Part shown: piece by piece, positions 40,683 to 64,000 of the stretch
Numbering within the stretch: the first letter of the stretch is position 1
Layout of the letters: each line of letters begins with the position of its first letter
NCBI RefSeq assembly: GCF_025699485.1
Contig: NZ_JANUXN010000019.1
Coordinates: forward strand, 1-64,000
DNA length: 64,000 nt
Direction: 5' to 3'
DNA from: Thauera carbonicopians
GTDB taxonomy: Bacteria; Pseudomonadota; Gammaproteobacteria; Burkholderiales; Rhodocyclaceae
The notes under the pieces: generated by a model
The model's input: the letters and a program-made list of their open reading frames with translations, nothing else
Databases searched by the model: none
What the model was told of the DNA's origin: nothing
Program-made: the position numbers and the translations under genes

Positions 40683-40789
40683 GCATGAAGCGCCGGGGCA
40701 GCGCGGCCGCGCGCGCCCCGGCCCACTCCCACCCGGCTCGCGGCTTGCCAAACCCCCCGGCCCTCACTTAAGCTTCGCGCGCATTCGAT

Positions 40790-40975
40790 CCAGGTGCCCT
40801 GTCACGCCGTCGCGGACAGGGTGAAACGGGAAGTCCGGTGATACCGCCTCCAGCGGCCATTCCGGCGCAGCCCCCGCTGCTGTAGTCCTGACGGATTCCG
40901 CCCCCTGCCACTGGGCCATGCCCGGGAAGGCCGCGGACATCCGGACGAAGGAGAGCCAGAAGACCGGCCTGGTCG
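40790..40975 (+). promoter_or_regulatory. cobalamin riboswitch (AdoCbl-type) before the uptake-cobN operon
   Basis: The conserved elements occur in order: GGTGCCC with a pairing CCCTGTC/GACAGGG, GGTGAAACGGGAAGTCCGGTG, CGCAGCCCCCGCTGCTGTAG, CTGCCACTGGG, CCCGGGAAGG and the B12 box AGCCAGAAGACCGGCC at 40954-40969. It lies about 195 bases before the substrate-binding protein gene. Binding of adenosylcobalamin should lower expression of the operon 41171-51474. CCGGGGTGCGGG at 40992-41003 follows and may form part of the expression platform. Confidence 0.96.
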
Positions 40976-41082
40976 ATTGAAGGTCACTGCCCCGGGGTGC
41001 GGGCGATCGCCGTCTGGCCTGCCGTCCCGGCTTTGGCCTTCCGTTCTCCGTCCCCAGGCCGATCGTCGCCACAGCCGCAGCC

Positions 41083-41169
41083 ATGGACCAGGACAGCAAG
41101 CACCACGACATCTCTTCTTCCCACGCCTTCGGGGCCGGCACGGCGCAAGCGCCCGGCGCCGGCGGCTGA
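41083..41169 (+). CDS. possible 28-residue leader peptide ORF
   Basis: An ATG at 41083 opens a 28-codon frame (MDQDSKHHDISSSHAFGAG then a Gly/Ala end) whose TGA lies one base before the ATG of the substrate-binding protein gene. That gene lacks its own ribosome-binding site, so translational coupling is possible. There are three His residues. The frame is short and could be chance in GC-rich DNA. Confidence 0.2.
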   Translation: MDQDSKHHDISSSHAFGAGTAQAPGAGG

Positions 41170-41170
41170 G

Positions 41171-42130
41171 ATGGCCGTGCGCCTGCTCGCCGCGCTGCTG
41201 GCCATGCTGCCCGGCACTTTCGCCTTCGCTGCGTCCAGCGCAGCACTGCCGCGCGTGATGTCGACCAACCTGTGCGCCGACATGCTGGTGCTCGGCCTCG
41301 CCGACCCGGCGCAGATCGTCTCGGTGTCGCGCAAGAGCCAGGACCCGCGCCGTACCGACATGTACGAACAGGCTCGCCGCCATCCCGTCAACGACGGCAG
41401 CGCCGAGGAAGTGCTGGCCCTGCGCCCCGATGTCGTGCTGGCGTCGCGGCGCTGGCAGGCACGCCACCAGGCCGCGCTGTTCGAGCGCCACGGCATCGAG
41501 ATCGTCACCGTGCCCTACCCCACCGACTGGGACGGCATCTTCGCCAGCACCCGGCAGATCGCCGGTCGGCTCGGCCGCAGCGCCGCCGGCGAGGCGCTGG
41601 TGGCGAACGTCCAGGCCCGCATCGCCCACCTGCAGGCGAGCACGCATCCGGCCCGCGCGCTCTACCTGCGCCCCAACGGCGGCACTGCCGGCGCCGACAC
41701 CTATGTCGACGCGGTGCTCCAGGCCGCCGGCGTGCGCAACCATGCCGCCGAGTCCGGCCGCCGCGGCTGGGGCCGGGTCGCGCTGGAGGACGTGATCACC
41801 GACCCGCCCGATGTCTTCGTCGTCAGCAGCATGCTGAACGACACCGCCTATGCCCGCTCCGGCTTCGCCCGCCATCCGCTGATGCGGACGCTGCTCGCCG
41901 AACGCCAGGTGGTGCGCATGGACGGCAACGACTGGGGCTGCAGCAACTGGCAGCTCATCGAGGCCGCCGAAGACATCGCCGCACAATTGGCCCGCCTGAG
42001 CCCGCCAGCCCCGATGCCCTTCAGCCGGGCACCCCTGAGCCGGGCGCCTTTCTACCCTGGCCGAGCAGGAGTGGAAGAAACAAGCGCCACACAGCCAATC
42101 ACGGCCTCACCGGCACGGATACCACAATGA
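41171..42130 (+). CDS. corrinoid/iron-type ABC transporter substrate-binding protein
   Basis: The 319-residue protein has a signal peptide (MAVRLLAALLAMLPGTFAFA) and a BtuF/FhuD-type periplasmic-binding fold: RVMSTNLCADMLVLGLADPAQIVSV, ALRPDVVLASRRWQARH and a C-terminal lobe. Being first after a cobalamin riboswitch and coupled to a BtuCD pair, corrinoid uptake is likely. The last 35 residues (from about SRAPLSRAPF) come from a CCGGGCACCCCT-type repeat and look like a recent extension by repeat sequence. The stop overlaps the permease start by 4 bases. Confidence 0.88.
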   Translation: MAVRLLAALLAMLPGTFAFAASSAALPRVMSTNLCADMLVLGLADPAQIVSVSRKSQDPRRTDMYEQARRHPVNDGSAEEVLALRPDVVLASRRWQARHQAALFERHGIEIVTVPYPTDWDGIFASTRQIAGRLGRSAAGEALVANVQARIAHLQASTHPARALYLRPNGGTAGADTYVDAVLQAAGVRNHAAESGRRGWGRVALEDVITDPPDVFVVSSMLNDTAYARSGFARHPLMRTLLAERQVVRMDGNDWGCSNWQLIEAAEDIAAQLARLSPPAPMPFSRAPLSRAPFYPGRAGVEETSATQPITASPARIPQ

Positions 42131-43182
42131 CGGCCGGCCAAGCCACATCCCACGCACCGCTGCCGCGCACCAGCCAACGCGCGCTGCCGCTCAACGGCCT
42201 GCTCGCGCTGGCCCTGCTTGCGCTCGCACTGGTCTCGCTCGGCATCGGCCCGGTGCAACTGGCTCTGACCGACGTCGCCGCCGCGCTGCTGCCGGTCGGC
42301 GATGGCGCGTCCGAAGCGCTGGCCCGCCAGCATGCCATCGTCGCCGAGATCCGCCTGCCGCGCGTGCTGCTGGCGATCCTGGTCGGCGCCTCGCTCGGCA
42401 TGTCGGGCGCGGCGCTGCAGGGCCTGCTGCGCAATCCGCTCGCCGAGCCGGGCCTGCTCGGCATCAGCTCCAGCGCCAGCCTGGGCGCAGTGCTGTGCCT
42501 GTACTTCGGCCTCGCCCAGTTGACGCCCTGGCTGCTGCCGGCGGCGGCGATGAGCTGCGCCGGCCTGGCGACGCTGGTGCTGTACCGCATCGCCCGCCGC
42601 GGCACCGGCAACCTGACGCTGATCCTCGCCGGCGTGGCGCTGTCCTCGCTGGCCGGCGCGCTGACTTCGCTGGCGATCAACCTCGCCCCCAACCCGACCG
42701 ACGTCCAGGACATCGTGCTGTGGCTGCTCGGCTCGCTGGCCGACCGCAGCTTCGACGACATCCGCCTGTGCCTGCCTTTCGTGCTCGCCGGCCTGGCCCT
42801 GCTGGCCGCCTGCGGACGCGACCTCGATGCGCTGTCGGTGGGCGAGGACGAAGCCGCCAGCATGGGCGTCAATCTCGCCCGCCTGCGCGCGCAGGTGGTC
42901 GTCGGCACCGCGCTGTGCGTCGGCGCCAGCGTCGCCGTGACCGGCGCGATCGGCTTCGTCGGCCTGGTGGTGCCGCACATGCTGCGCCGCGCGGTGGGCT
43001 ACCACCCGGCGCGCCTGCTGGTGTCGAGCGCGCTCGGCGGTGCAGTGCTGCTGCTGGCCGCCGACGTCGTGCTGCGCCTGGTCAGCGGCGGCTTCGAACT
43101 GATGCTGGGCGTGGTCACGGCGCTGATCGGCGCGCCCTTCTTCTTCGTGCTAGTGCTGCGCGAACGGCTGGGGCAGGCATGA
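42127..43182 (+). CDS. btuC: BtuC-type ABC transporter permease
   Basis: The 351-residue FecCD/BtuC family permease has about ten hydrophobic helices and the family blocks RLPRVLLAILVGASLGMSGAALQGLLRNPLAEPGLLGIS and AIGFVGLVVPHMLRRAVGYHPARLL. It forms the membrane channel of the corrinoid importer with the adjacent ATPase. ATGA overlaps occur at both ends, linking substrate-binding protein, permease and ATPase in one tightly coupled unit. Confidence 0.93.
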   Translation: MTAGQATSHAPLPRTSQRALPLNGLLALALLALALVSLGIGPVQLALTDVAAALLPVGDGASEALARQHAIVAEIRLPRVLLAILVGASLGMSGAALQGLLRNPLAEPGLLGISSSASLGAVLCLYFGLAQLTPWLLPAAAMSCAGLATLVLYRIARRGTGNLTLILAGVALSSLAGALTSLAINLAPNPTDVQDIVLWLLGSLADRSFDDIRLCLPFVLAGLALLAACGRDLDALSVGEDEAASMGVNLARLRAQVVVGTALCVGASVAVTGAIGFVGLVVPHMLRRAVGYHPARLLVSSALGGAVLLLAADVVLRLVSGGFELMLGVVTALIGAPFFFVLVLRERLGQA

Positions 43183-44069
43183 CGCGGCTGCTCATCGAAT
43201 CCCTCTTCGTGCGCCACGGCAGCGCGACCCTGGTCGACGGCGTCTCCGCCGAAATCGGCCAGGGCGAACTGTTCGGCCTGATCGGCCCCAACGGCGCCGG
43301 CAAGAGCAGCCTGCTGCGGGCGGTGGCGCAGTTGCTGCCGCACCAGGGCGCGGTCGGGCTCGATGGCACGCCGCTGGCCGCGCTGTCGCCGCGCCAGCGC
43401 GCCACCCGGCTGGCCTATCTCGCCCAGGGCGACCATGCCGCCTGGCCGCTGACGGTGCGCGACTTCGTCGCCCTCGGCCGCCTGCCGCACCGCCCGCGCT
43501 GGCGCGCGGCGCCGGACGGCGACGAGGTCGTCGCCCAGGCGATGGCCCAGATGCGGCTGGAAGCGCTGGCCGAGCGCCGGCTCGACCAATTGTCCGGCGG
43601 TGAGCGCGCTCGCGCCCGGCTGGCACGCGCCCTGGCCGTCGATGCGCCGCTGCTGCTGGCCGACGAGCCGGTCGCGGCACTCGACCCCTTCCACCAGTTG
43701 AGCGTGATGGAACTGCTGCGCGAGCAGTGCGCGCTCGGCCGCACGGTGATGGTGGTGCTGCACGACCTGACGCTGGCGAGCCGCTTCTGCCACCGCGTGC
43801 TGCTGATGGACCACGGCCGCGCCGTGGCCTGCGGCGCCCCGCGCACCGTGCTCACCGCCGCCAACCTGCAGCGCGTGTACCAGGTGCAGGCAATGCTGGG
43901 CGAGCACGAACGCCAGCCCTACGTCGTGCCCTGGCGCTGCCGGCCCGAAGGCGCGGCACAAGCACCTGAGAACGATGTGGGCGCATCGGCGCCTGCACCC
44001 TCCAGCAAAGATTCGCATGCCGGAACGGCTGCTCCGCCCGCAAGCGCGTTCGCATCCCCTAGCCACTGA
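43179..44069 (+). CDS. btuD: BtuD-type ABC transporter ATP-binding protein
   Basis: The 296-residue ATPase has Walker A GPNGAGKSS, the signature LSGGERARARLARAL, Walker B LLLADEPVAALDP and switch His in VVLHDLTLASRFC. It pairs with the permease gene it overlaps by 4 bases. The C-terminal 40 residues are low-complexity Ala/Pro/Ser and unlikely to matter for function. It ends 26 bases before cobW. Confidence 0.93.
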   Translation: MTRLLIESLFVRHGSATLVDGVSAEIGQGELFGLIGPNGAGKSSLLRAVAQLLPHQGAVGLDGTPLAALSPRQRATRLAYLAQGDHAAWPLTVRDFVALGRLPHRPRWRAAPDGDEVVAQAMAQMRLEALAERRLDQLSGGERARARLARALAVDAPLLLADEPVAALDPFHQLSVMELLREQCALGRTVMVVLHDLTLASRFCHRVLLMDHGRAVACGAPRTVLTAANLQRVYQVQAMLGEHERQPYVVPWRCRPEGAAQAPENDVGASAPAPSSKDSHAGTAAPPASAFASPSH

Positions 44070-44095: not shown

Positions 44096-45186
<1,091 letters not shown>

Positions 45187-45187
<1 letters not shown>

Positions 45188-48100
45188 TGCACCTGCTCGC
45201 GGCCCAGCCCGGCGGCTTCGTCGACGACGCCTCGATCATCACGCGCATCGCGCAGGATCCGGCCGACATCGTCGTCCTCAGCGCCGCCGACACCACGCTG
45301 GCGCTGCTCGCCGCCGCCTGGCCGGCCGCGAGCGAGGGCATCGAAGGTTTTCCGACCCTGCGGCTGGCCAACCTGCTGCACCTGCGCCAGCCGGCGTCGG
45401 TCGACCTCTACCTCGACGACGTGCTGCAGCACGCCCGCGTCATCGTCATCGACCACCTCGGCGGCGAAAGCTACTGGCCCTACGGCACCGAGCGCATCGG
45501 CGAACTGTGCCGCGCGCGCAGCATCGCGCTGGTGATGTTCTCCGGCGACACCACCGAAGACAGCAACCTGCTGCAGAAGAGCACGGCCGATGCCGACACC
45601 TGCCGCACGCTGTGGCGCTACCTGCGCGAAGGCGGACCGGCCAACGCGCGCGCCTTCCACCAGTTCCTCGCCGCGCAGTTCTTCGCGCTGCCCTTGCCGG
45701 TGCCGCCGCCGCGGCCGCTGCCCTCGGTGGCGGTGTTCCACCCGCGCCAGGAGCTCGGCTCGGTGGAAAGCTGGCGCGGCGACTGGCAGCCCGGCGCACC
45801 CTGCGTCGCCGTGCTGTTCTACCGCGCCCACCTGCAGGCCGGCAACACCGCGGTGTTCGCCCACCTGTGCGACACGCTGGCCGCACGCGGCATGAACCCG
45901 CTGCCGATCGCGCTGCTGTCGCTGAAGGACGCGCTGTGCGCCGACACCCTGCGCCGGCTGTGCCGCGAACACGAGGTGGCGCTGATCCTCAACACCACCG
46001 CGTTCTCGCAGTCCGCGCTCGACGATCCCGGCGACCATGCGCTGGTCGACGACATCCCGGTGCTGCAGGTCATTCTGTCCGGCGGCAACGAGGAAGGCTG
46101 GCGGAGCGATCCGCACGGCCTGGCGCCGCGCGACATCGCCATGCACATCGCCCTGCCCGAAGTGGACGGCCGCATCATCAGCCGCGCGGTCAGCTTCAAG
46201 GGCTTGTCGCACCGCTGCGAACTGACCCAGTGCGACGTCGTGCAATACCGTCCGCAACCCGAGCGCATGGCCTTCGTCGCCGAGCTGGCGCGGCGCTGGT
46301 GCCGGCTGCGCGCGCTGCCCAACGCCGACAAGCGGCTGGCGCTGATCCTGGCCAACTACCCCAGCCGCGAAGGCCGGCTGGGCAACGGCGTCGGCCTCGA
46401 CACCCCGGCCTCGGTGATCACCATCCTCGAACGCCTGCGCGACGAGGGCTATGCCACCGAGGCCATCCCGGCCGACGGCGACGCACTGATGCTGCAGTTG
46501 AAGGAAGGCATCACCAACGATCCCGAGCAGTGGGCCTTACGCCCGGCGCGGCAGAGCCTGGCGATGGAGACCTACCTCGCTTTCTTCGAGCGCCTGCCGC
46601 AGGCCGTGCGCAACGCGGTAAACGAGCGCTGGGGCCCGCCGGCCGACGACCCGATGACACGCCGGGGCCGCTTCATGATCGCCGGGCTGCGCTGCGGCCA
46701 GGTCTTCGTCGGCATCCAGCCCGCGCGCGGCTACGAGCTCGATGCCCAGGCCAGCTACCACGACCCCGACCTGGTGCCGCCGCACCACTACCTCGCCTTC
46801 TACTGCTGGCTGCGCGAAGTCTGGCGCAGCGACGCCATCGTGCACGTCGGCAAGCACGGCAACCTCGAATGGCTGCCGGGCAAGAGCGTGGCGCTGTCGG
46901 ACGAATGCTGGCCCGACGTCGCCTTCGGCCCGCTGCCCCACCTCTACCCCTTCATCGTCAACGACCCCGGCGAAGGCACCCAGGCCAAGCGCCGCGCCCA
47001 GGCGGTGATCATCGACCACCTGATGCCGCCGCTGACCCGCGCCGAAAGCTACGGCCCGACGCGCGACCTCGAACGCCAGGTCGACGAATACTACGAAGCG
47101 CTGATGCTCGACCCGCGCCGCGCCGAGCTGCTGCGCCGCCAGATCCTCGACCACATCCTGCGCCACGACCTGCACCGCGATCTCGGCTTCGACGAGCCGC
47201 AGACGGCCGAGGAAGAGCAGCGCCTGCTCAACCGCACCGACGCCTACCTGTGCGACCTGAAGGAAGCGCAGATCCGCGACGGCCTGCACATCTTCGGCCG
47301 CTCGCCCACCGAACGGCTGCGGCGCGACACCCTGCTCGCGCTGGCGCGCCATCCGGTCGGCGACGGCCGCGGCGGCAAGGAAGGCCTGACCCGCGCGCTG
47401 GCGACCGACCTCGGCCTGTGCGGCGAGGATGGCAACAACAGCTTCAACCCGCTCGACTCCGACTGGGGCCAGCCCTGGCACGGCCCGCGCCCGGCCGTGC
47501 TCGCAGAACTCGGCGACGGCCTGTGGCGCAATGCCGGCGATACCCGCGAACGGCTCGAACTGCTGGCATTGCAGGTGCTGGAACAAGGCCTGCCGGCAGG
47601 CCACGACTGGCCGCTCGCCGGCGCCGTGCTCGAGCGCATCGACCACGAACTGCGCCCGCGCCTCGACGCCTGCGGTGAACAGGAACTGCTGCAACTGACG
47701 CGCGGCCTCGCCGGCCGCTTCGTGCCGCCGGGGCCGAGCGGGGCGCCCACCCGCGGCCGCCCCGACGTGCTGCCGACCGGGCGCAACTTCTACTCGGTCG
47801 ACACCCGCGCCGTGCCCACCCAGACCAGTTGGGCGCTCGGCCTGAAGTCCGCCGCGCTGCTGGTCGAACGCTATGTGCAGGAGCACGGCGACTACCCGCG
47901 TGCGATCGGCCTGTCGGTATGGGGCACGGCGACGATGCGCACCGGCGGCGACGACATCGCCCAGGCCTTCGCGCTGATCGGCGTGCGGCCCAAATGGGCC
48001 GACGGCAGCCACCGCGTGGCCGACTTCGAGATCCTGCCGATGTCGCTGTTCGACCGTCCGCGCATCGACGTCACGCTGCGCGTGTCCGGCTTCTTCCGCG

Positions 48101-48981
48101 ACGCCTTCGCCAACGTCATCCGCCTGTTCGACGCCGCGGTGCAGGCCGTCGCCGAGCTGGACGAAGCCGAGGACGTCAACCCGATCCGCGCCCGCATCCT
48201 GCGCGAAGCCGCCACACTGGCGGCCGAAGGCATGGATGCGAGCGAGGCCCGCCGCCACGCCGGCCACCGCATCTTCGGCGCCAAGCCCGGTGCCTACGGC
48301 GCCGGCCTGCAAGGCCTGATCGACGGCCGCAACTGGGACGACGACGCCGACCTCGCCACCGCCTGGCTCGAATGGGGCGGCCACGCCTACGGCCAGCACG
48401 ACTACGGCAGCGAGGCCCGCAGCACCTTCGCCCGCCGCCTGTCCGGCATCGACCTGGTGATGCAGAACCAGGACAACCGCGAGCACGACCTGCTCGACTC
48501 CGACGACTACTACCAGTTCCAGGGCGGCATGACCGCCGCGGTGCGCCACCTGTCCGGCAGCCAGCCGGCGGTGTATTTCGGCGACCACGCCAACCCGCAG
48601 GCACCGGTGGTGCGTTCGCTGGAGGAGGAAATCAGCCGCGTCGTGCGCTCGCGCGTGACCAACCCGAAATGGATCGCCGGCATCAAGCGCCACGGCTACA
48701 AGGGCGCGTTCGAGATGGCGGCCACGGTCGATTACCTGTTCGCCTTCGACGCCACCGCCCGCGTCGTCCGCGACGACCAGTACGCCCGCGTCGCCGACGC
48801 CTACATCGAAGACACCCACACCCGCGACTTCCTGCAGCGCCACAACCCCGATGCGCTGCGCGAGATGTGCGAACGCCTGCTCGAAGCCATGCAGCGCGGC
48901 CTGTGGCAGGAACCCGGCGACTGGCGCGAACGCATCGAGCAGCACCTGCTCGCCGCCGAACAGCATCTGGAAAAACGATGA
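45187..48981 (+). CDS. cobN: cobaltochelatase large subunit CobN
   Basis: CobN is the porphyrinoid-binding subunit that, with two AAA+ subunits, inserts cobalt into hydrogenobyrinic acid a,c-diamide in the oxygen-requiring B12 pathway. The 1264-residue length is normal. Recognisable blocks are [62 protein letters not shown] and the late [25 protein letters not shown]. Starts overlap cobW (TGATG) and its stop overlaps the chlD-type gene (ATGA), so all chelatase parts are co-translated. Confidence 0.97.
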
Positions 48982-50063
48982 ACGCCTCCACGACCTCCGC
49001 CGTGCCCCACTATCCTTTCGCCGCGCTGCACGGCCAGCCGCGCCTGCGCACCGCGCTGCTGCTCGCCGCCGTCGACCCGCTGATCGGCGGCGTGCTGATC
49101 GAAGGCCCGCGCGGCACGGCCAAATCCACCAGCGCACGTGCGCTCGCCGAACTGCTGCCGAAGGAGCACGGCGGCGGCCGCTTCGTCGACCTGCCGCTGG
49201 GTACCAGCGAAGAACAGCTCGTCGGCTCGCTCGACCTCGAAGCTGCGCTGCAGGACGGCCAGGTGCGCTTCCGCCCCGGCCTGCTGGCCCAGGCCCACGA
49301 CGGTCTGCTCTACATCGACGAAGTCAATCTGCTCGCCGACGGCCTGGTCGATCTGCTGCTCGACGTCTGCGCCAGCGGCACCAACCGTGTCGAACGCGAC
49401 GGCGTCTCGCACCAGCACCCGGCAAGGCTGACCCTGGTCGGCACCATGAACCCGGAAGAAGGCGAGCTGCGCCCGCAACTGCTGGACCGCTTCGGCCTGT
49501 TCGTGCACCTGGACGAGGCCATCGCCCCCGCCGCACGCCAGGCCATCGTGCGTGCCCGGCTGGCCTTCGATGCCGACCCGGCCGGCTTCGTCCGCCGCTT
49601 CGAGGCCGAACAGCGCGAGCTTGCCGGGCGCATCGCCCGCGCCCGCACGGCACTGGCCGGCATCGATTTCAGCGACGCGACCCACGACCGCGTCGCGACG
49701 CTGTGCCATGCCGCGCAGGTCGAAGGCGTGCGCGCCGACCTCGTGATGCTGCGCGCTGCGCGTGCCCACGCCGCGCTCGACGGCCGCAGCGAGATCACCG
49801 ATACCGACATCGACGCCGTGGCCGAACTGGTGCTCGCCCATCGCCGCAAGGCAGCCGAGGATGTTCCGCCGCAGCGCCGCGACGAATCGGCGCCTAACGA
49901 CACCCCCCAACGCAAGGATGCCGCGAACGATCAAACGGATCCGGGCGACTCCACCAACACCGAGCAGCAGGACCAACAGGACGACTGGGGCGCCCTGCCG
50001 CCGCAGCCTGTGCCCATCCAGGCCGTCAAGAATGTCAGGCCACTACGCCCAAAAAAGCCCTGA
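48978..50063 (+). CDS. chlD: chelatase AAA+ ATPase (ChlI-like product; N-terminal part of frameshifted ChlD)
   Basis: In the zero frame the gene gives a 361-residue AAA+ ATPase of the magnesium/cobalt chelatase type: Walker [15 protein letters not shown], Walker [11 protein letters not shown], the sensor region [23 protein letters not shown]. It ends in an acidic, Gln-rich linker followed by [11 protein letters not shown] and TGA at 50061. The slippery A AAA AAG lies just before this stop. A -1 shift joins residues 1-360 to the vWA part (50057-50728), giving about 583 residues, the size of ChlD. Both products together would serve CobN. Confidence 0.92.
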
Positions 50064-50106
50064 CGCGTCCGGCGGCCGCGCCCGGCAGGGCGACCGCCGG
50101 ACGCGT
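50051..50106 (+). promoter_or_regulatory. programmed -1 ribosomal frameshift signal
   Basis: The heptamer A AAA AAG (50051-50057), in register with the zero-frame codons CCA AAA AAG, is the same as the dnaX slippery site. Five bases later a perfect 13-bp stem begins: 50063-50075 pairs with 50094-50106. Inside its 18-base loop CGCCC and GGGCG (50079-50083, 50088-50092) form a second hairpin. The zero-frame stop TGA is at 50061-50063. The -1 frame is open to 50728 and has no ATG, GTG or TTG until 50246, inside the vWA domain. An AGG at 50037-50039 is only a weak upstream Shine-Dalgarno-like element. Confidence 0.88.
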
Positions 50107-50728
50107 TGCCAGCCCGACAAAAAAAGGCCGCCCTGGCCCGGTCGCAGGCACACGCATCGACTGGCCGCGCACGCTCGCGGCCAAGGCGAACACGACACTC
50201 GCCCCCGCCCATCTGCGCTGGCGCCCGCAGCCGGCCGGCGGCGGCGTGCTGCACTGCATCCTGCTCGACTGCTCGGCCTCGATGCTGCGCGGCAAACGCC
50301 TGTCGCTGGCCAAGGGCCTGCTGCTGCGCTGGACCGCCGAGTTCTACCGCCGCCGCGAAGACCTCGCCGTGATCGGCTTCTCCGGCGAGCAGGCGCGCGT
50401 GCTGCAGCCGCCGCGCAAGGCCGTCGCCTTCAACGAAGCCTGGATCGCCGCCATCCCCGGCGGCGGCGGCACCCCGGCGCAGTCGGCCGTCGCCCTTGCC
50501 GACGCCCTGCTGCGCAAACGCCGCCGCGCCGTACCCGAACAGCACGTCGCGCTGTGGCTGCTGACCGACGCCCGCTTCGACGACATCCCGCCGCGCCCGC
50601 GCGGTGCCGACATCTGCACGGTGGTGGATTTCGACGATCCGGCAGTCACGCTCGGCCGCGCGACACGCATCGGCGCAGCCTGGGATGCGGAAGTGGTCCG
50701 CGCAACCGATCTGCTTGGAGTCCTATGA
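50057..50728 (+). CDS. chlD: von Willebrand A part of ChlD, read after -1 frameshift
   Basis: The -1 frame encodes 223 residues. It begins with a Pro/Ala/Lys-rich linker, then [36 protein letters not shown], the typical ChlD/CobT entry to a vWA domain. The MIDAS metal motif DCSAS is present in [21 protein letters not shown], with GGGGTP and LLTDARFDD following. A GTG at 50246 falls after the conserved entry segment and next to the MIDAS strand, so independent initiation would give a broken domain. Frameshifting explains the missing start codon. Confidence 0.9.
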
Positions 50729-50790: not shown

Positions 50791-51474
50791 ATGCACATCG
50801 AACCCGGAATCGTCGAAGGCTCCAAGATGCTCCTGAGCTACGGTACCGCCGCCGCAGCACTCGCCTACACCGCCAGGACCTCGCTCGACACCATCCGGCG
50901 CGACGGCGCCGCTTCGCTGCTGCTGCGCGCCGCGCTGGCCAGCCTGCTGGTGTTCTGCTTCTTCGAGGTCTTCCCCCACCACCCGGTCGGCGTCTCGGAA
51001 GTCCACCTGATCCTCGGCACCACGCTGCTGCTGATCTTCGGCCTCGCCCCGGCGGCGATCGGGCTGGCTGGCGGCCTGCTGGCGCAAGGCCTGCTGTTCG
51101 CCTCCTTCGACCTGCCGCAGTACGGCATCAACGTCACCACCCTGCTGGTGCCGCTGTTCGCCACCGCCGTGCTGGCGAAGAAGATCATCCCCGCCGATAC
51201 GCCCTACGTGGATATCCGCTACGGCCAGGCGCTGAAGCTCTCGCTCGCCTATCAGGGCGGCATCGTCGCCTGGGTCGCCTTCTGGGCCTTCTACGGCCAG
51301 GGCATCGGCGCCGACAACCTGGCGGAAGTCGTCTCCTTCGGCGCCGCCTACATGACCGTCGTCATCGTCGAGCCGCTGATCGACCTCGCCGTGCTCGCCG
51401 CGGCGAAATTCCTCAACGGCCTGCGCAACACGATGTTCGTGGAGAAGCGGCTGTACAGCGGGACGCAGGGGTAA
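50791..51474 (+). CDS. CbiM-like cobalt energy-coupling permease
   Basis: The 227-residue membrane protein starts MHIEPGIV, keeping the N-terminal Met-His used by CbiM/NikM to bind Co or Ni, and has six to seven hydrophobic helices including ILGTTLLLIFGLAPAAIGLAGGLLAQGLLFASFDLPQYGINVTTLL. TGGAGAA precedes the ATG. It is last in the cobN operon, so cobalt supply is the likely role. The usual partners CbiN, CbiQ and CbiO are not in the window. A hairpin follows its stop. Confidence 0.8.
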   Translation: MHIEPGIVEGSKMLLSYGTAAAALAYTARTSLDTIRRDGAASLLLRAALASLLVFCFFEVFPHHPVGVSEVHLILGTTLLLIFGLAPAAIGLAGGLLAQGLLFASFDLPQYGINVTTLLVPLFATAVLAKKIIPADTPYVDIRYGQALKLSLAYQGGIVAWVAFWAFYGQGIGADNLAEVVSFGAAYMTVVIVEPLIDLAVLAAAKFLNGLRNTMFVEKRLYSGTQG

Positions 51475-59647: not shown

Positions 59648-61756
59648 TCAGAACTTCATTTCGGCAATCAACTCCACCCTGCGGTCGTCGCCCATGACGA
59701 AGTTGCCGCCATAGGAAGCCGCCGCATAGACCTTGTCGGTCAGGTTGCGGCCGAGCAGGCGCAGCGTGGTGTTCTGGTCGTATTGCCAACTGATGGCGGC
59801 GTCGAACACGGTGTAGGACGGCAGCGTCAGCGAGTTTGCGTTGTTGGCGTAACGCTTGCCGACGTAGCGCGCACCCAGCGAAGCCTGCCAGTCGCCGACC
59901 TGGTAATGGCCCCACAGGTTGGCGATGTTGCGGGCCACGTTGCTCGGCCGGTTGCCGGCACGGTCGGCGCCGCCGGCTTCGACCAGTTCGTCGAACTCGG
60001 CATCGATCAGTGCGTAGTTGCCTTCGAACATCAACTGCCGGGTCGGCCGCAGCACTGCAGTCAACTCGATGCCCTTCGAATGCTGGCTGCCGCCCTGCAC
60101 CGAGATCGCCGGCTGCACCGGGTCGCGGGTGATGATGTCGTCCTTCTCGATGCGGTAGATCGCCGCCGTCCATTCGCCGAGGCCCTGGCCGAACTGCTGC
60201 TTCAGGCCCACTTCGACCTGCTTCGCCGAAGCGAGCTTGAACGCGCTGTTGGCCAGGCTCAGCGACAGCATGTTGTCGATCGGGTCGTAGCCCTTGCTGA
60301 GCTGGCCATAGACGCTGAGATCGTCGCTGACGAAGTGCGTCAGCCCCAGCCGCCACGACGTGCCGGACAGCTTCTTGCCGAAGGACACGCCGGTCAGCCG
60401 GTCGCGGCGGTCGTAGTCGCTCAGGTCGCGGCGCGCGCCGAACAGCAACTGCCACTTGTCGCTGAAGCGCCAGGCGTCCTCGAAGTAGAAGGCGTGCTGG
60501 GTGGTGTCGGTATCGGTCTTGGGCTGGGTGACGCCCGGGTTCACCCACAGACCATGGACCGGATCGCGCGCCGAGACGCTGGACGAGCCGCCGTAGGGCG
60601 CGTTGTTGGAAAGCCGCAGATCGGCCTGCGAGTATTCCCAGCCGAGCACCGCCTTGTGCTGGCCGGCGGTGATCGTCGCCTCCAAACGGTTACCCGTCTG
60701 CTCCAGGTCGTGGAAGATTTCCAGGTAATCGGAGCGCGACACCCTGTCCGTCGCGGGGTCGTAGCGATAGCCCTCGACGTTCTTCCAGTGCCGGTCGGAG
60801 GCGAAGTGATAGACCTCGTTGCGGATGCTCAGCCACTCGTTGGCCGTCCATTCGGCCCGCGCGCGCAGGCGGGTGTCCTCGTAGCGGACGACGCCGTCGG
60901 TGACGTTGTAGTTCTCGTGGCGCAGATGCTTCAGCACCTTGCCGTTGTAGACCGGCGTGCCCCAGTAGTCCCCCGGCTTCTGCTCGCTGAAGTCGGCCAG
61001 CAGTTCGAAGCGCAGATCGCTCGACGGCTGCAGGCGCAGCGTGCTCATGACCTTGCCGCCCTGCGAACGCGCATAGTCGCGCTTGGCATCCGACTGGTGG
61101 CCATAGACGTCGACGCGATAGCTGGCGATCTCGCCGATGGGGCCGGTGGCGCCCAGGCCCAGGCGATAGGTATCGTACTGGCCCAGGCCCAGCAGCAATT
61201 CGGTGGAGCGCTCGCGGCTGGGCTGCTTGCGCACCGCGTTGATGACGGCACCCGCCGTGCCGGCGCCGGAGACGATCGAAGCCGGGCCGCGCAGCACTTC
61301 GATGCGCTCGTAACCCCAACTGGTATTGGGATAGTTGATCGTGCCGGCGGCGGTGCCGATGCGCGCGCCGTCTTCGGCGACACCGACCGAGTTGACGCCC
61401 GCGAAACCGCGCGCGGAAAACGACAGGCCGCCGTTGCCGCCGGTGCCCTGCGAAGTCAGGCCGGTCGTGCGGGTGACGGCCTCGACGACGCCGAAGTCGC
61501 CGCGCCGGCGCATCGTGTCGGCATCCATCTGCTCCAGGCTGGCAGGCAGCTCCTGCGCGGACAGGCCGGTGCGGCTGCCGGTGGCGGACGGCCGGTTCAG
61601 GCCCAGGCTGCCGTCGGGCACGGCCGTCACCTCCACCGGCGGCAAGGTCGTTTGCGCCACGGCGGGCGCGGACAGGAATGCCGCCAGCAGGGCGAAGGGG
61701 AGCGGGCGAAGCTTCGCCGGGCTACGGCGGGAAACACAAGATTTGGTGAGTTTCAT
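59648..61756 (-). CDS. TonB-dependent siderophore-type outer membrane receptor
   Basis: The 702-residue receptor has a signal peptide ending SAPAVAQ, a TonB box-like LPPVEVTAV, a plug domain (LEQMDADTMRRRGDFGVVEAVTRTTGL, YERIEVLRGPASIVSGAGTAGAVINAVRKQP) and a beta-barrel ending in the terminal Phe. The plug is closest to ferric siderophore (FhuA/FpvA-like) receptors, not BtuB. Yet it stands behind a cobalamin riboswitch and before a corrinoid-type importer. A corrinoid or a cobalt chelate is the probable substrate (inference). Confidence 0.92.
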   Translation of the reverse strand: MKLTKSCVSRRSPAKLRPLPFALLAAFLSAPAVAQTTLPPVEVTAVPDGSLGLNRPSATGSRTGLSAQELPASLEQMDADTMRRRGDFGVVEAVTRTTGLTSQGTGGNGGLSFSARGFAGVNSVGVAEDGARIGTAAGTINYPNTSWGYERIEVLRGPASIVSGAGTAGAVINAVRKQPSRERSTELLLGLGQYDTYRLGLGATGPIGEIASYRVDVYGHQSDAKRDYARSQGGKVMSTLRLQPSSDLRFELLADFSEQKPGDYWGTPVYNGKVLKHLRHENYNVTDGVVRYEDTRLRARAEWTANEWLSIRNEVYHFASDRHWKNVEGYRYDPATDRVSRSDYLEIFHDLEQTGNRLEATITAGQHKAVLGWEYSQADLRLSNNAPYGGSSSVSARDPVHGLWVNPGVTQPKTDTDTTQHAFYFEDAWRFSDKWQLLFGARRDLSDYDRRDRLTGVSFGKKLSGTSWRLGLTHFVSDDLSVYGQLSKGYDPIDNMLSLSLANSAFKLASAKQVEVGLKQQFGQGLGEWTAAIYRIEKDDIITRDPVQPAISVQGGSQHSKGIELTAVLRPTRQLMFEGNYALIDAEFDELVEAGGADRAGNRPSNVARNIANLWGHYQVGDWQASLGARYVGKRYANNANSLTLPSYTVFDAAISWQYDQNTTLRLLGRNLTDKVYAAASYGGNFVMGDDRRVELIAEMKF

Positions 61757-61904
61757 GGTCAGATCGCAGTGCTGACCGTCCGGACATGCGCAGCGGCACA
61801 CCACGTCACCCGATGCACACGACATCCGGACCACCTGGAGCCACCACCTGCTTCCCCGCAGACGGTCTGTTGCCAAAAGCCGCGCATCCAACGCGGGATG
61901 CACG

Positions 61905-62175
61905 GCGCCAACAGGCCGGTCTCCGGGCTTGCACAGCGTATCCGGGCGCGCAGCGCCGGATACCGGACTCACCGCCTTCCCGATGCGTTCGCGCGCTTCC
62001 TCGGCGGAAGCCACGTGGCGCATCAGTGGCTGGCCCGGGCGTCGATCGCTCGACGGCCGGAGCCGGGGTGAATCCCGATGTGCTTACCGTTGCGGGGGCA
62101 GCCAAGGCCTTGCGCAGCCGGAACGACGATCGCTCCGGCCGCACGCACCTTGTTCCCGTTTAACCGGGCGCCCCA
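61905..62175 (-). promoter_or_regulatory. cobalamin riboswitch on the minus strand before the siderophore-type receptor
   Basis: Read on the minus strand the elements are GCCCGGTTAAACGGGAACAAGGTG (about 62169-62146), GGCTGCCCCCGCAACGGTAAGCAC (62103-62080), CAGCCACTG, GGGAAGGCGGTGAG and the B12 box AAGCCCGGAGACCGGCC (about 61930-61913). Downstream, GCATCC and GGATGC (61901-61884) can pair shortly before CTTTT and may form the terminator that controls readthrough. It should regulate the operon 61756-55926. Confidence 0.95.
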
Positions 62176-62344
62176 TCGAAGGAGCCGCCCGGCACCTGTA
62201 GTCCTCATCGATCGCAGCGCACACAGGCGCGCAGCCGCATCGACGTGGCGGGCAGTATAGCTCCACGGCAACACCGATGGCTGACAGCCGGGGGCACGAG
62301 CTTGCGACGCCACATCCGATTGCGTATGCTCGCCGCCACTTGAT

Positions 62345-62540
62345 CCGGTGTCCGTCCACGCAGCCGCGTGGCCGGGTGAAACGGGAAGTCCGGTAAGCGA
62401 AGCTCGTCAGCCTCGCCATCCCGGCGCAGCCCCCGCTGCTGTAAACCTTTCAGATGCCGCCATCCATGCCACTGGGCCATTCAGTTGCCCGGGAAGGCGG
62501 CGGCATCGGTCGAAGGCGAGCCAGAAGACCGGCCGGATCA
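62345..62540 (+). promoter_or_regulatory. cobalamin riboswitch before the BtuB-like receptor
   Basis: GGGTGAAACGGGAAGTCCGGT, GGCGCAGCCCCCGCTGCTGTAAACC, ATGCCACTGGGCC, GCCCGGGAAGGCGGCGG and the B12 box AGCCAGAAGACCGGCC (62519-62534) appear in the canonical order. It is very similar to the element at 40790-40975, including CCGGGGTGTGGG at 62557-62568 after the aptamer. It lies about 155 bases before a TonB receptor gene and is divergent from the riboswitch at 61905-62175. Confidence 0.96.
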
Positions 62541-62693
62541 GGAAGAAGTACCAACTCCGGGGTGTGGGTTGTCCGTCTTTTGTGCGCGTGCCGGCAGAAG
62601 CTTTCTCCGTCGCATGCCGCAATCGTCTGCTGTCGCCGCAGGGACGCACGGTCTGCACGTACTTTTTGCCGTTTGCAGGCGATGCGACACATC

Positions 62694-64000
62694 ATGAAAA
62701 CTTCCATTCCTCAAGGCCTCCGCTCCGCGCTGGCGCTTTCCGGCGCGGCCTTGTGCCAGCCGCTGTGGGCCGTGACGCCCACCGTCACGCTCAACAGCGT
62801 CGTGATCGAGGCGCCATCGGTGGAGACCACCACCACCGCCGAACTGGCCCAGTTCGGCAGCAAGACCGAAATCGTCACCCGCGAGCAGATCGAGCGCGCC
62901 GGCCCCAGCGCGGACGTGGCGCGGGTGCTGCAGATGTACGTGCCCGGCCTGTTCATCGCGCCCAAGAACGGCCCCTTCGACTACACCGCGGTGTCGCTGC
63001 TGGGCGGCCGCACCGACGACACGCTGATCCTGCTCGACGGCGTGCGCCTCAACAACCGCCTGTACGGCGGCATCTACATCGACACGCTGCCGGCCGCCGC
63101 AGTGGAACGCATCGAAGTGCTCAAGGGCGGGCAGAGCCTGTTCTTCGGCACCCAGGCCATTTCCGGCGTCATCAACATCGTCACCCGCCGCGCCCAGAGC
63201 CGCGAGTATTCCGGCCAGGCCAGCCTCGGCGTGGACACTTTCGGCGGCATCAATGCCGAAGGCCGCGTCGAGCGCGTGTTCGAGAACGGCCTCGGCGCAT
63301 TCGAGTTCCTCGCTTTCGCCAGCCACAACGAATCCGACGGCTACGAACCCTATCGCCGCAGCGACACCACGGCGACGCTGAGCAAGCGCAAGCGCGCCTA
63401 CGAAGTCACCACGGTCGGCGCCAAGCTGGCGCAGAACTTCGGCAGCAATGCGCGCGCCGAGCTGTTCTACCAATACACCGATGCCGATCTCGATTTCGCC
63501 CGGCCGACGCAGAACCGCGACACGCGCAACGTCCGCGATCATCACATCCTGACGGCGACCTTCGAGCATGCGCCGAGCGACAGCTTCCGCTATTTCGTCA
63601 AGGGCCACTTCAACAAGTGGGACACCGATTACACCCGCGTCTACAACCTGCCGGGCGGCGGCATCAGCGTGATCAACGACAAGGACTACTGGGGCTTCAA
63701 GGACTGGGGCGTGCAGGCCCAGGCCACCGCCGTGCTGCCCGGCGCGCACGAACTGGTGTTCGGCGTGGACAGCCAGCGCTATCGCGCCCGCGACGACATC
63801 ACCGAAGTCCATGACCACCAGGCCGAAGCCTATGGCGCCTACGTGCAGTTCCGCCCGGTGTTCAAGTCCATGCCGCAGTGGCAGCCGGCCGTCGGCGTGC
63901 GCCACGAGAAGATGAGCGGCGGCGGCAGCGCCACGGTGTGGAACCTCAGCTCGCGCTACCAGCTCGACGACCAGTGGGCCTTGCGCGGCCAGATCGGCAC
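62694..64000 (+). CDS. btuB: BtuB-like TonB-dependent receptor (cut by the window end)
   Basis: The frame is open from ATG 62694 to the end of the window, 435 codons so far. A signal peptide (MKTSIPQGLRSALALSGAALCQPLWA) is followed by a TonB box-like NSVVIEAP and a plug domain: EIVTREQIERAGPSADVARVLQMYVPGLFIA, SLLGGRTDDTLILLDGVRLNN, AVERIEVLKGGQSLFFGTQAISGVINIVTRR. This is of the BtuB/vitamin B12 or CirA class. An in-frame ATG at 62682 is an alternative start. The preceding riboswitch makes corrinoid uptake the best assignment. Confidence 0.92.
   Translation, partial: MKTSIPQGLRSALALSGAALCQPLWAVTPTVTLNSVVIEAPSVETTTTAELAQFGSKTEIVTREQIERAGPSADVARVLQMYVPGLFIAPKNGPFDYTAVSLLGGRTDDTLILLDGVRLNNRLYGGIYIDTLPAAAVERIEVLKGGQSLFFGTQAISGVINIVTRRAQSREYSGQASLGVDTFGGINAEGRVERVFENGLGAFEFLAFASHNESDGYEPYRRSDTTATLSKRKRAYEVTTVGAKLAQNFGSNARAELFYQYTDADLDFARPTQNRDTRNVRDHHILTATFEHAPSDSFRYFVKGHFNKWDTDYTRVYNLPGGGISVINDKDYWGFKDWGVQAQATAVLPGAHELVFGVDSQRYRARDDITEVHDHQAEAYGAYVQFRPVFKSMPQWQPAVGVRHEKMSGGGSATVWNLSSRYQLDDQWALRGQIG

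Follow-up and report, generated by a model that had tools for sequence, protein, structure and literature searches.

A conserved frameshift signal in the chlD gene beside cobN of Thauera carbonicopians and its two predicted chelatase subunits

The chlD gene that follows cobN in Thauera carbonicopians carries the anatomy of a programmed -1 frameshift, and we consider it about 93% probable that frameshifting on this single gene yields two chelatase subunits, both serving the adjacent CobN. The gene lies in a B12-controlled operon within the window, a term that refers here to the whole stretch of 64,000 nucleotides that was analysed. Judged from its sequence, the locus would illustrate cleanly how a ribosomal slip lets a single gene supply two subunits to a machine that inserts metal. 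The setting is of interest as well, the operon being found in a bacterium in which several of the B12-ring genes tested were not found.

The recoding site and its reading frames

By direct reading of the sequence, chlD starts at an ATG (position 48978) that overlaps the cobN stop codon. The AAA codon of the heptamer A_AAA_AAG stands in the zero frame of this ATG, as was read directly and then recomputed, and a single sense codon, CCC at 50058-50060, separates the heptamer from the zero-frame stop TGA (Table 1). The zero frame comprises 361 codons. The -1 frame is open for 223 codons from position 50057 and leads to a fusion product of 583 residues. The earlier note had described the heptamer in register, a 5-base spacer, a 13-bp stem with a nested 5-bp hairpin, a stop 3 bases past the heptamer and the 223-codon -1 frame, all of which proved exact to the base; its product lengths of 361 and 583 residues were likewise recovered, and the masses that it gave as about 38 and 62 kDa were recomputed as 38.9 and 62.6 kDa.

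The zero-frame part matches TIGR02442 (E 1.1e-122) and TIGR02030 (E 8.8e-94), in both cases under the whole-protein cut-off, which is expected because it is only part of the protein. The -1 extension does encode the vWA part that had been assigned to it: it matches VWA_2 (PF13519) with 34.9 bits against a cut-off of 27 (E 2.5e-8), positions 457-583 of the TIGR02442 profile (E 3.7e-18) and also the C-terminal part of TIGR02031. The 583-residue fusion contains motifs, DCSAS among them, that we take to be the Walker A, Walker B and vWA metal site. A second run of seven A occurs at 50119-50125, shortly past the stem and in the -1 frame; because no seven-A run is present at the corresponding place in the congener G022, lysine coding seems a better account of it than a signal.

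Table 1. Coordinates of the recoding elements and of the surrounding operon in the window
Feature	Position	Strand	Evidence
Cobalamin riboswitch (RF00174), operon head	40774..40986	+	Rfam 106.7 bits, gathering score 31.5
Periplasmic binding protein, B12/siderophore-type ABC importer	40997..42130	+	PF01497, E 4.9e-24
FecCD/BtuC-type permease	42214..43182 (start of Pfam match; gene begins earlier)	+	PF01032, E 6e-87
Transporter ATPase, BtuD-like	43188..44069 (start of best family match)	+	PF00005; NCBIfam ABC importer matches
cobW, cobalt chaperone GTPase	44096..45187	+	TIGR02475, 514 bits, cut-off 332.1
cobN, large chelatase subunit	45187..48981	+	TIGR02257, 1607.7 bits, cut-off 822.05
Zero-frame chlD product, ChlI-like AAA+ subunit, 361 aa	48978..50063	+	Partial TIGR02442, TIGR02030, TIGR02031; AAA_lid_2, Mg_chelatase
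SD-like element site; relatives GTGAGG, window GTCAGG (weak form)	50034..50039	+	AGG codon bias; pairing energy
Slippery heptamer A_AAA_AAG	50051..50057	+	In register; A_AAA_AAR in 85/86 loci
-1 extension (223 codons + stop), vWA domain of 583-aa ChlD-like product	50057..50728	+	PF13519, TIGR02442, dN/dS
Zero-frame stop TGA	50061..50063	+	One codon past heptamer; equal spacing in 85/86 loci
Putative stimulatory stem-loop, 13-bp outer stem + nested 5-bp hairpin	50063..50106	+	Folding; conserved in relatives
CbiM-like cobalt uptake protein, gene directly after chlD	50791..51474	+	PF01891, E 2.9e-15

Conservation of the signal in relatives

A protein search covered 61 genomes, including the own genome (G000) and 28 congeners, and close orthologues of chlD were found in the own genome and in five of the 28 congeners (72-82% identity), all five of which display A_AAA_AAG, one codon, TGA and then a stem. 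A scan of a species-representative collection gave 589 confirmed stretches; the best 80 of these, a sample that leans to near relatives, come mostly from Pseudomonas and the Burkholderia group, and also from Azoarcus, Thauera, Cupriavidus and a few others. Own genome, five congeners and these 80 make up a set of 86 loci, 85 of them distinct (L036 duplicates G004), outside which lie the separate ChlI genes of G053, G048, G033 and G037 (L009-L012) and weak matches to other AAA+ proteins (L013-L032).

The vWA part lies in the -1 frame in 84 of the 86 loci, and A_AAA_AAR stands exactly one codon ahead of the stop in 85 (AAAAAAG in 57, AAAAAAA in 28), the zero-frame stop being TGA in 50 loci and TAG in 36, L100 counted. 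The same genes of the 84 loci with the -1 relation offer 45,770 other codon positions, of which 1 carries an in-frame A_AAA_AAR. The Marinomonas locus L100 carries the fusion in a single frame and without the heptamer. A locus of Cupriavidus basilensis OR16 (L045) retains heptamer and stem, its -1 frame ends early and no vWA match was found in it.

In the ten pairs of five congeners, G004 included, dN/dS ranges from 0.14 to 0.52 over both frames and from 0.27 to 0.52 in the vWA part; the six pairs among G000, G001, G013 and G018 give 0.23-0.43 for the AAA+ part and 0.27-0.52 for the vWA part, and both chlD reading frames look constrained. These figures, with no value above 0.52 in either part, weigh against a pseudogene, or an intact chlD disrupted by a sequencing or assembly error within the A run, as does the recurrence of heptamer, stop distance and -1 relation in independent genomes. 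A homopolymer of six A would indeed be an error-prone place, but with the pattern so conserved this explanation retains next to no probability and was rejected.

Making the vWA part separately, by translational coupling or by re-initiation past the stop, would require a start of its own. In the window, the earliest ATG, GTG or TTG of the -1 frame is GTG 50246, which by our own reading appears to sit within the first strand of the vWA domain, in its core, and the earlier claim that no usable start precedes the conserved entry of this domain agrees with that position. At least one such codon does lie in the -1 frame between slip site and vWA domain in 66 of the 84 loci (two of the congeners, G013 and G004, have GTGs there), and some tested fs-genes also showed downstream initiation according to PMC3711429; none lies there in the other 18 loci, however, no start position is common to all, and the commonest candidate, a TTG at +119, was seen in Pseudomonas loci. 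Coupling would, moreover, need no heptamer in register. A separate start was rejected because none is usable in the window, and we regard it as very unlikely.

Elements flanking the heptamer

Five bases downstream of the heptamer begins an outer stem of 13 pairs (A50063-G50075 with C50094-T50106, plus a G50062-T50107 wobble), inside which a hairpin of 5 bp is nested (50079-50083/50088-50092). The 65-nt fold reaches -42.2 kcal/mol (z -3.94), and 0 of 200 dinucleotide shuffles were equally stable; folding z falls below -2 in 60 of 85 loci. This stem had been called unusually long, a description that does not hold among relatives: the longest uninterrupted stem, G-U pairs allowed, counts at least 13 pairs in 39 of 85 loci, 15 in the window and 21 in one congener. 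With the start offset (5, 6 or 7) and the end freely chosen, and with L036 and L100 excluded, 78 of 84 loci show the complete outer stem (8 of 8 pairs), compared with 39 of 756 control stretches of the same genes; the loci that fall short are L035, L039, L043, L049, L055 and L105.

Covariation was assessed in the 34 of 35 TGA loci with a start offset of 6 that have at least 7 pairs. Pair types vary there at all 8 positions, and the arms of a locus form 7.9 of 8 pairs with each other against 5.2 of 8 when arms are swapped between loci, a contrast that is largely one between clades. The 32 TAG loci with offset 5 (own arms 8.0, swapped 7.87) give no covariation support because their stem hardly varies; the window (TGA, offset 5) falls in neither group but belongs with 14 further TGA loci, whose offset is 5 or 7. 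The sequence of the stem differs from clade to clade, and the stem is nevertheless maintained. A dispersed repeat as its origin was also considered and rejected: a 301-base query matched, in the own genome, just itself and its own palindrome.

The stem also bears on whether RNA polymerase, rather than the ribosome, slips on the A run, so that a mixed mRNA population gives both products. Such transcriptional slippage is known for Thermus dnaX, as stated in a review that names runs of 9 (PMC5009743). Six A are short by comparison, the heptamer reads AAAAAAG in most loci (57 of 86), and a conserved stem at a near-fixed distance fits ribosomal slipping; on account of the short run and the conserved stem, slippage by the polymerase was rejected as highly improbable.

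Upstream of the heptamer, at a distance of about 11 bases, relatives read GTGAGG or similar, whose GAGG is a Shine-Dalgarno (SD)-like element. Arginine stands five codons before the slip codon in 23 of 85 loci and is encoded by AGG in 20 of these 23 (one a duplicate), while AGG has a 1.6% share of the arginine codons in the rest of these reading frames. The five congeners have a strong form of the element and the window a weak one, CAGG, which pairs with -2.5 kcal/mol and is equalled by 9.5% of synonymous recodings. Compared with 200 synonymous recodings per locus, pairing falls in the lowest 5% in 9 of 21 TGA/AAAAAAG, 5 of 28 TGA/AAAAAAA and 1 of 35 TAG loci, counts that are not independent, the loci being related. 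An upstream stimulator seems genuine for the five congeners, for L033, L044, L052 and L039, and for some of the Caballeronia/Paraburkholderia loci; it is absent in the TAG-type Pseudomonas group, with a mean native pairing of -4.1 kcal/mol against -5.3 in synonymous controls.

Conserved heptamer, stop distance, -1 vWA frame and stem together fit the prediction of a programmed -1 frameshift. This reading, proposed in the earlier note, gains support from the relatives (frame in 84 of 86 loci, heptamer in 85 of 86, conserved stem) and from the frameshifting measured for three family members in PMC3711429. Counting against it are the weak upstream element of the window, the lack of covariation in the TAG group, the exceptions L100 and L045, and a second small and medium pair, of CobS/CobT type, in the own genome.

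Operon context and partner subunits

The operon runs from the riboswitch through binding protein, permease, ATPase, cobW, cobN and chlD to the CbiM-like gene. Homologues of all its genes surround cobN-chlD in G018, G013 and G001, with a riboswitch past the binding protein. For G004, no importer was matched in the stretch that precedes cobW (L121), and about 0.8 kb separate the riboswitch from cobW; the short contig of G022 ends within chlD and has the riboswitch about 1.2 kb before cobN. Among the 86 loci, cobN was detected in 84 and adjoins chlD (within about 250 bases) in 78. Two further cobalamin riboswitches occur in the window, making three: one at 61897-62214 (-), overlapping the start of a TonB receptor ORF (59651-62023, -), and one at 62329-62551, at the start of a plus-strand region that holds the ORFs 62348-63811, for which no Pfam match was found, and 62454-63998.

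Ribosomes on the chlD message would meet A_AAA_AAG with the stem 5 bases downstream. Those that do not slip would stop one codon on and release a ChlI-like AAA+ subunit of 361 residues; those that slip back one base would read on and complete a ChlD-like subunit of 583 residues with its vWA domain. Both products may then assemble with the CobN of the same operon, and cobalt, the presumed metal, would be handled by CobW and the CbiM-like protein. The AAA+ and vWA parts and the neighbouring cobN are consistent with the earlier suggestion of ChlI-like and ChlD-like products for CobN. Efficiency is not readable from anatomy, as a seven-A family member with 10% frameshifting shows (PMC3711429).

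Could the products serve another large subunit, or several, and not mainly the adjacent CobN? Two further CobN-like large subunits are indeed encoded in the own genome (L114:7019-11158 on C16 and L115:6683-10633 on C22), each adjoining a TonB-dependent receptor. HmuS, a CobN homologue of a hmu operon, is described in PMC12583661 as a heme de-chelatase, which counts against the idea. So does linkage: wherever a chlD with this frameshift site (fs-chlD) is present among the own genome and the congeners, six genomes altogether, it comes after cobN, TIGR02257 CobN exceeds its cut-off in exactly 6 of 61 genomes, those with a close relative of chlD, and G011, G035 and G060, with CobN-like matches under the cut-off, have no such relative. 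We hold a main partner other than the adjacent CobN to be unlikely.

The earlier note had also proposed a genome search for a separate chlI or cobS gene, and its two halves came out differently. At E 1e-20, TIGR02030 matched chlD itself and nothing else in the own genome, so no separate ChlI was found; a CobS-like gene was found on contig C8, with 553 bits just under the cut-off of 558.55, and next to it lies a divergent CobT-like gene with 307.5 bits against a cut-off of 759.05. The same region (L113:4897-8107) holds a Lin0512-family ORF near sulfoacetaldehyde acetyltransferase. Of the 61 genomes, 14 have a CobS-like match above 450 bits and three of these 14 (G000, G004, G018) also TIGR02257 CobN over its cut-off, and G001, G013 and G022 combine CobN and fs-chlD without a CobS-like match of this strength. 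Given these distributions, it is fs-chlD that tracks CobN in the 61 genomes, and CobS/CobT does not. Nine of the 28 congeners combine a strong CobS-like with a CobT-like match and lack TIGR02257 CobN, and the pair there therefore probably has a function other than cobalamin synthesis.

Corrin-ring genes and possible substrates

Five ring markers were tested: CobJ/CbiH, CobH/CbiC, CobM/CbiF, CobG and, for the anaerobic route, CbiD. In the own genome, rated 100% complete by the tool used, CobJ/CbiH, CobM/CbiF and CobG stayed below their cut-offs and CobH/CbiC and CbiD gave no match whatsoever, so that, for the first four markers, the corrin-ring genes of an aerobic (CobNST-type) pathway were not found. 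Three CobM matches under the cut-off comprise a uroporphyrinogen methyltransferase on C47 and two matches on C22. The outcome was equally negative for all five markers in G001 (2 contigs) and G013, and for the four that were searched in G018 (CobJ/CbiH, CobH/CbiC, CobM/CbiF and CbiD). In G004, CobJ, CobH and CobM exceed their cut-offs and lie within about 8 kb downstream of chlD, as does a CobG-like match slightly under its cut-off (209 bits against 234.8); in the fragmented assembly of G022, CobH and CobM exceed theirs and CobJ does not. Late or salvage genes over the cut-off in the own genome are CobB, cobinamide kinase and DMB phosphoribosyltransferase; its BtuB-like receptor is below.

Because both chlD frames are constrained yet the ring markers were not found, the chelatase seems to be retained in genomes unable to make its usual substrate. 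Its cobalamin role is uncertain since the tested ring-synthesis markers are not over cut-off, and with the signal kept where those genes were not found, the chelatase would need another source of substrate or another role. A tentative and rather doubtful possibility for G000, G001, G013 and G018 is that a chelatase under a cobalamin riboswitch inserts or replaces cobalt in imported corrin without the de novo pathway, together with the ABC importer, CobW and the CbiM-like protein; that the operon transporter would bring in the corrin, with cobalt insertion or exchange to follow, is a guess. If true, this would add to B12 acquisition a branch that works by metal salvage, in an organism auxotrophic for B12. 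A literature search on cobN, corrinoid salvage, metal-free corrins and Thauera returned no paper.

Comparison with known systems

Frameshifting in the chlD family has reportedly been linked to cobalt chelatase by Antonov (Mol. Biol. Evol., 2020). PMC3711429 (2013) lists 23 magnesium chelatase fs-genes from six genera and gives 63, 40 and 10% frameshifting in E. coli for three family constructs. A 2016 review (PMC5009743) places A_AAA_AAR under strong purifying selection and the stem sequence under no strong conservation, and chlD frameshifting may supply small and medium subunits for CobN according to PMC9227772. The present case shares with the family (PMC3711429; PMC5009743; PMC9227772) the gene, the A_AAA_AAR -1 site, the downstream stem and the proposed two-subunit output for CobN. 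Chelatase frameshifting as described here is thus of a kind already known, and this gene is a further member. It differs in that reporter tests concern other members, while here, in Thauera, the tested corrin-ring markers stay below cut-off and the genome also has a CobS/CobT-like pair. In a text search, no paper came up that treats frameshifting and cobN in Thauera.

The E. coli dnaX gene is alike in its A_AAA_AAG, its downstream stem and the N-terminal part shared by its short and long products. Its shifted product is the short one and its signal includes an upstream SD stimulator (PMC5009743), whereas the shifted product of fs-chlD is the long one and the upstream element is weak in the window. 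The CobNST chelatase of the Pseudomonas denitrificans type likewise combines a large CobN with AAA+ small and medium subunits; here, by contrast, small and medium subunits would come from one gene that matches the ChlI/ChlD models, and the CobS/CobT-like pair of the own genome lies on another contig.
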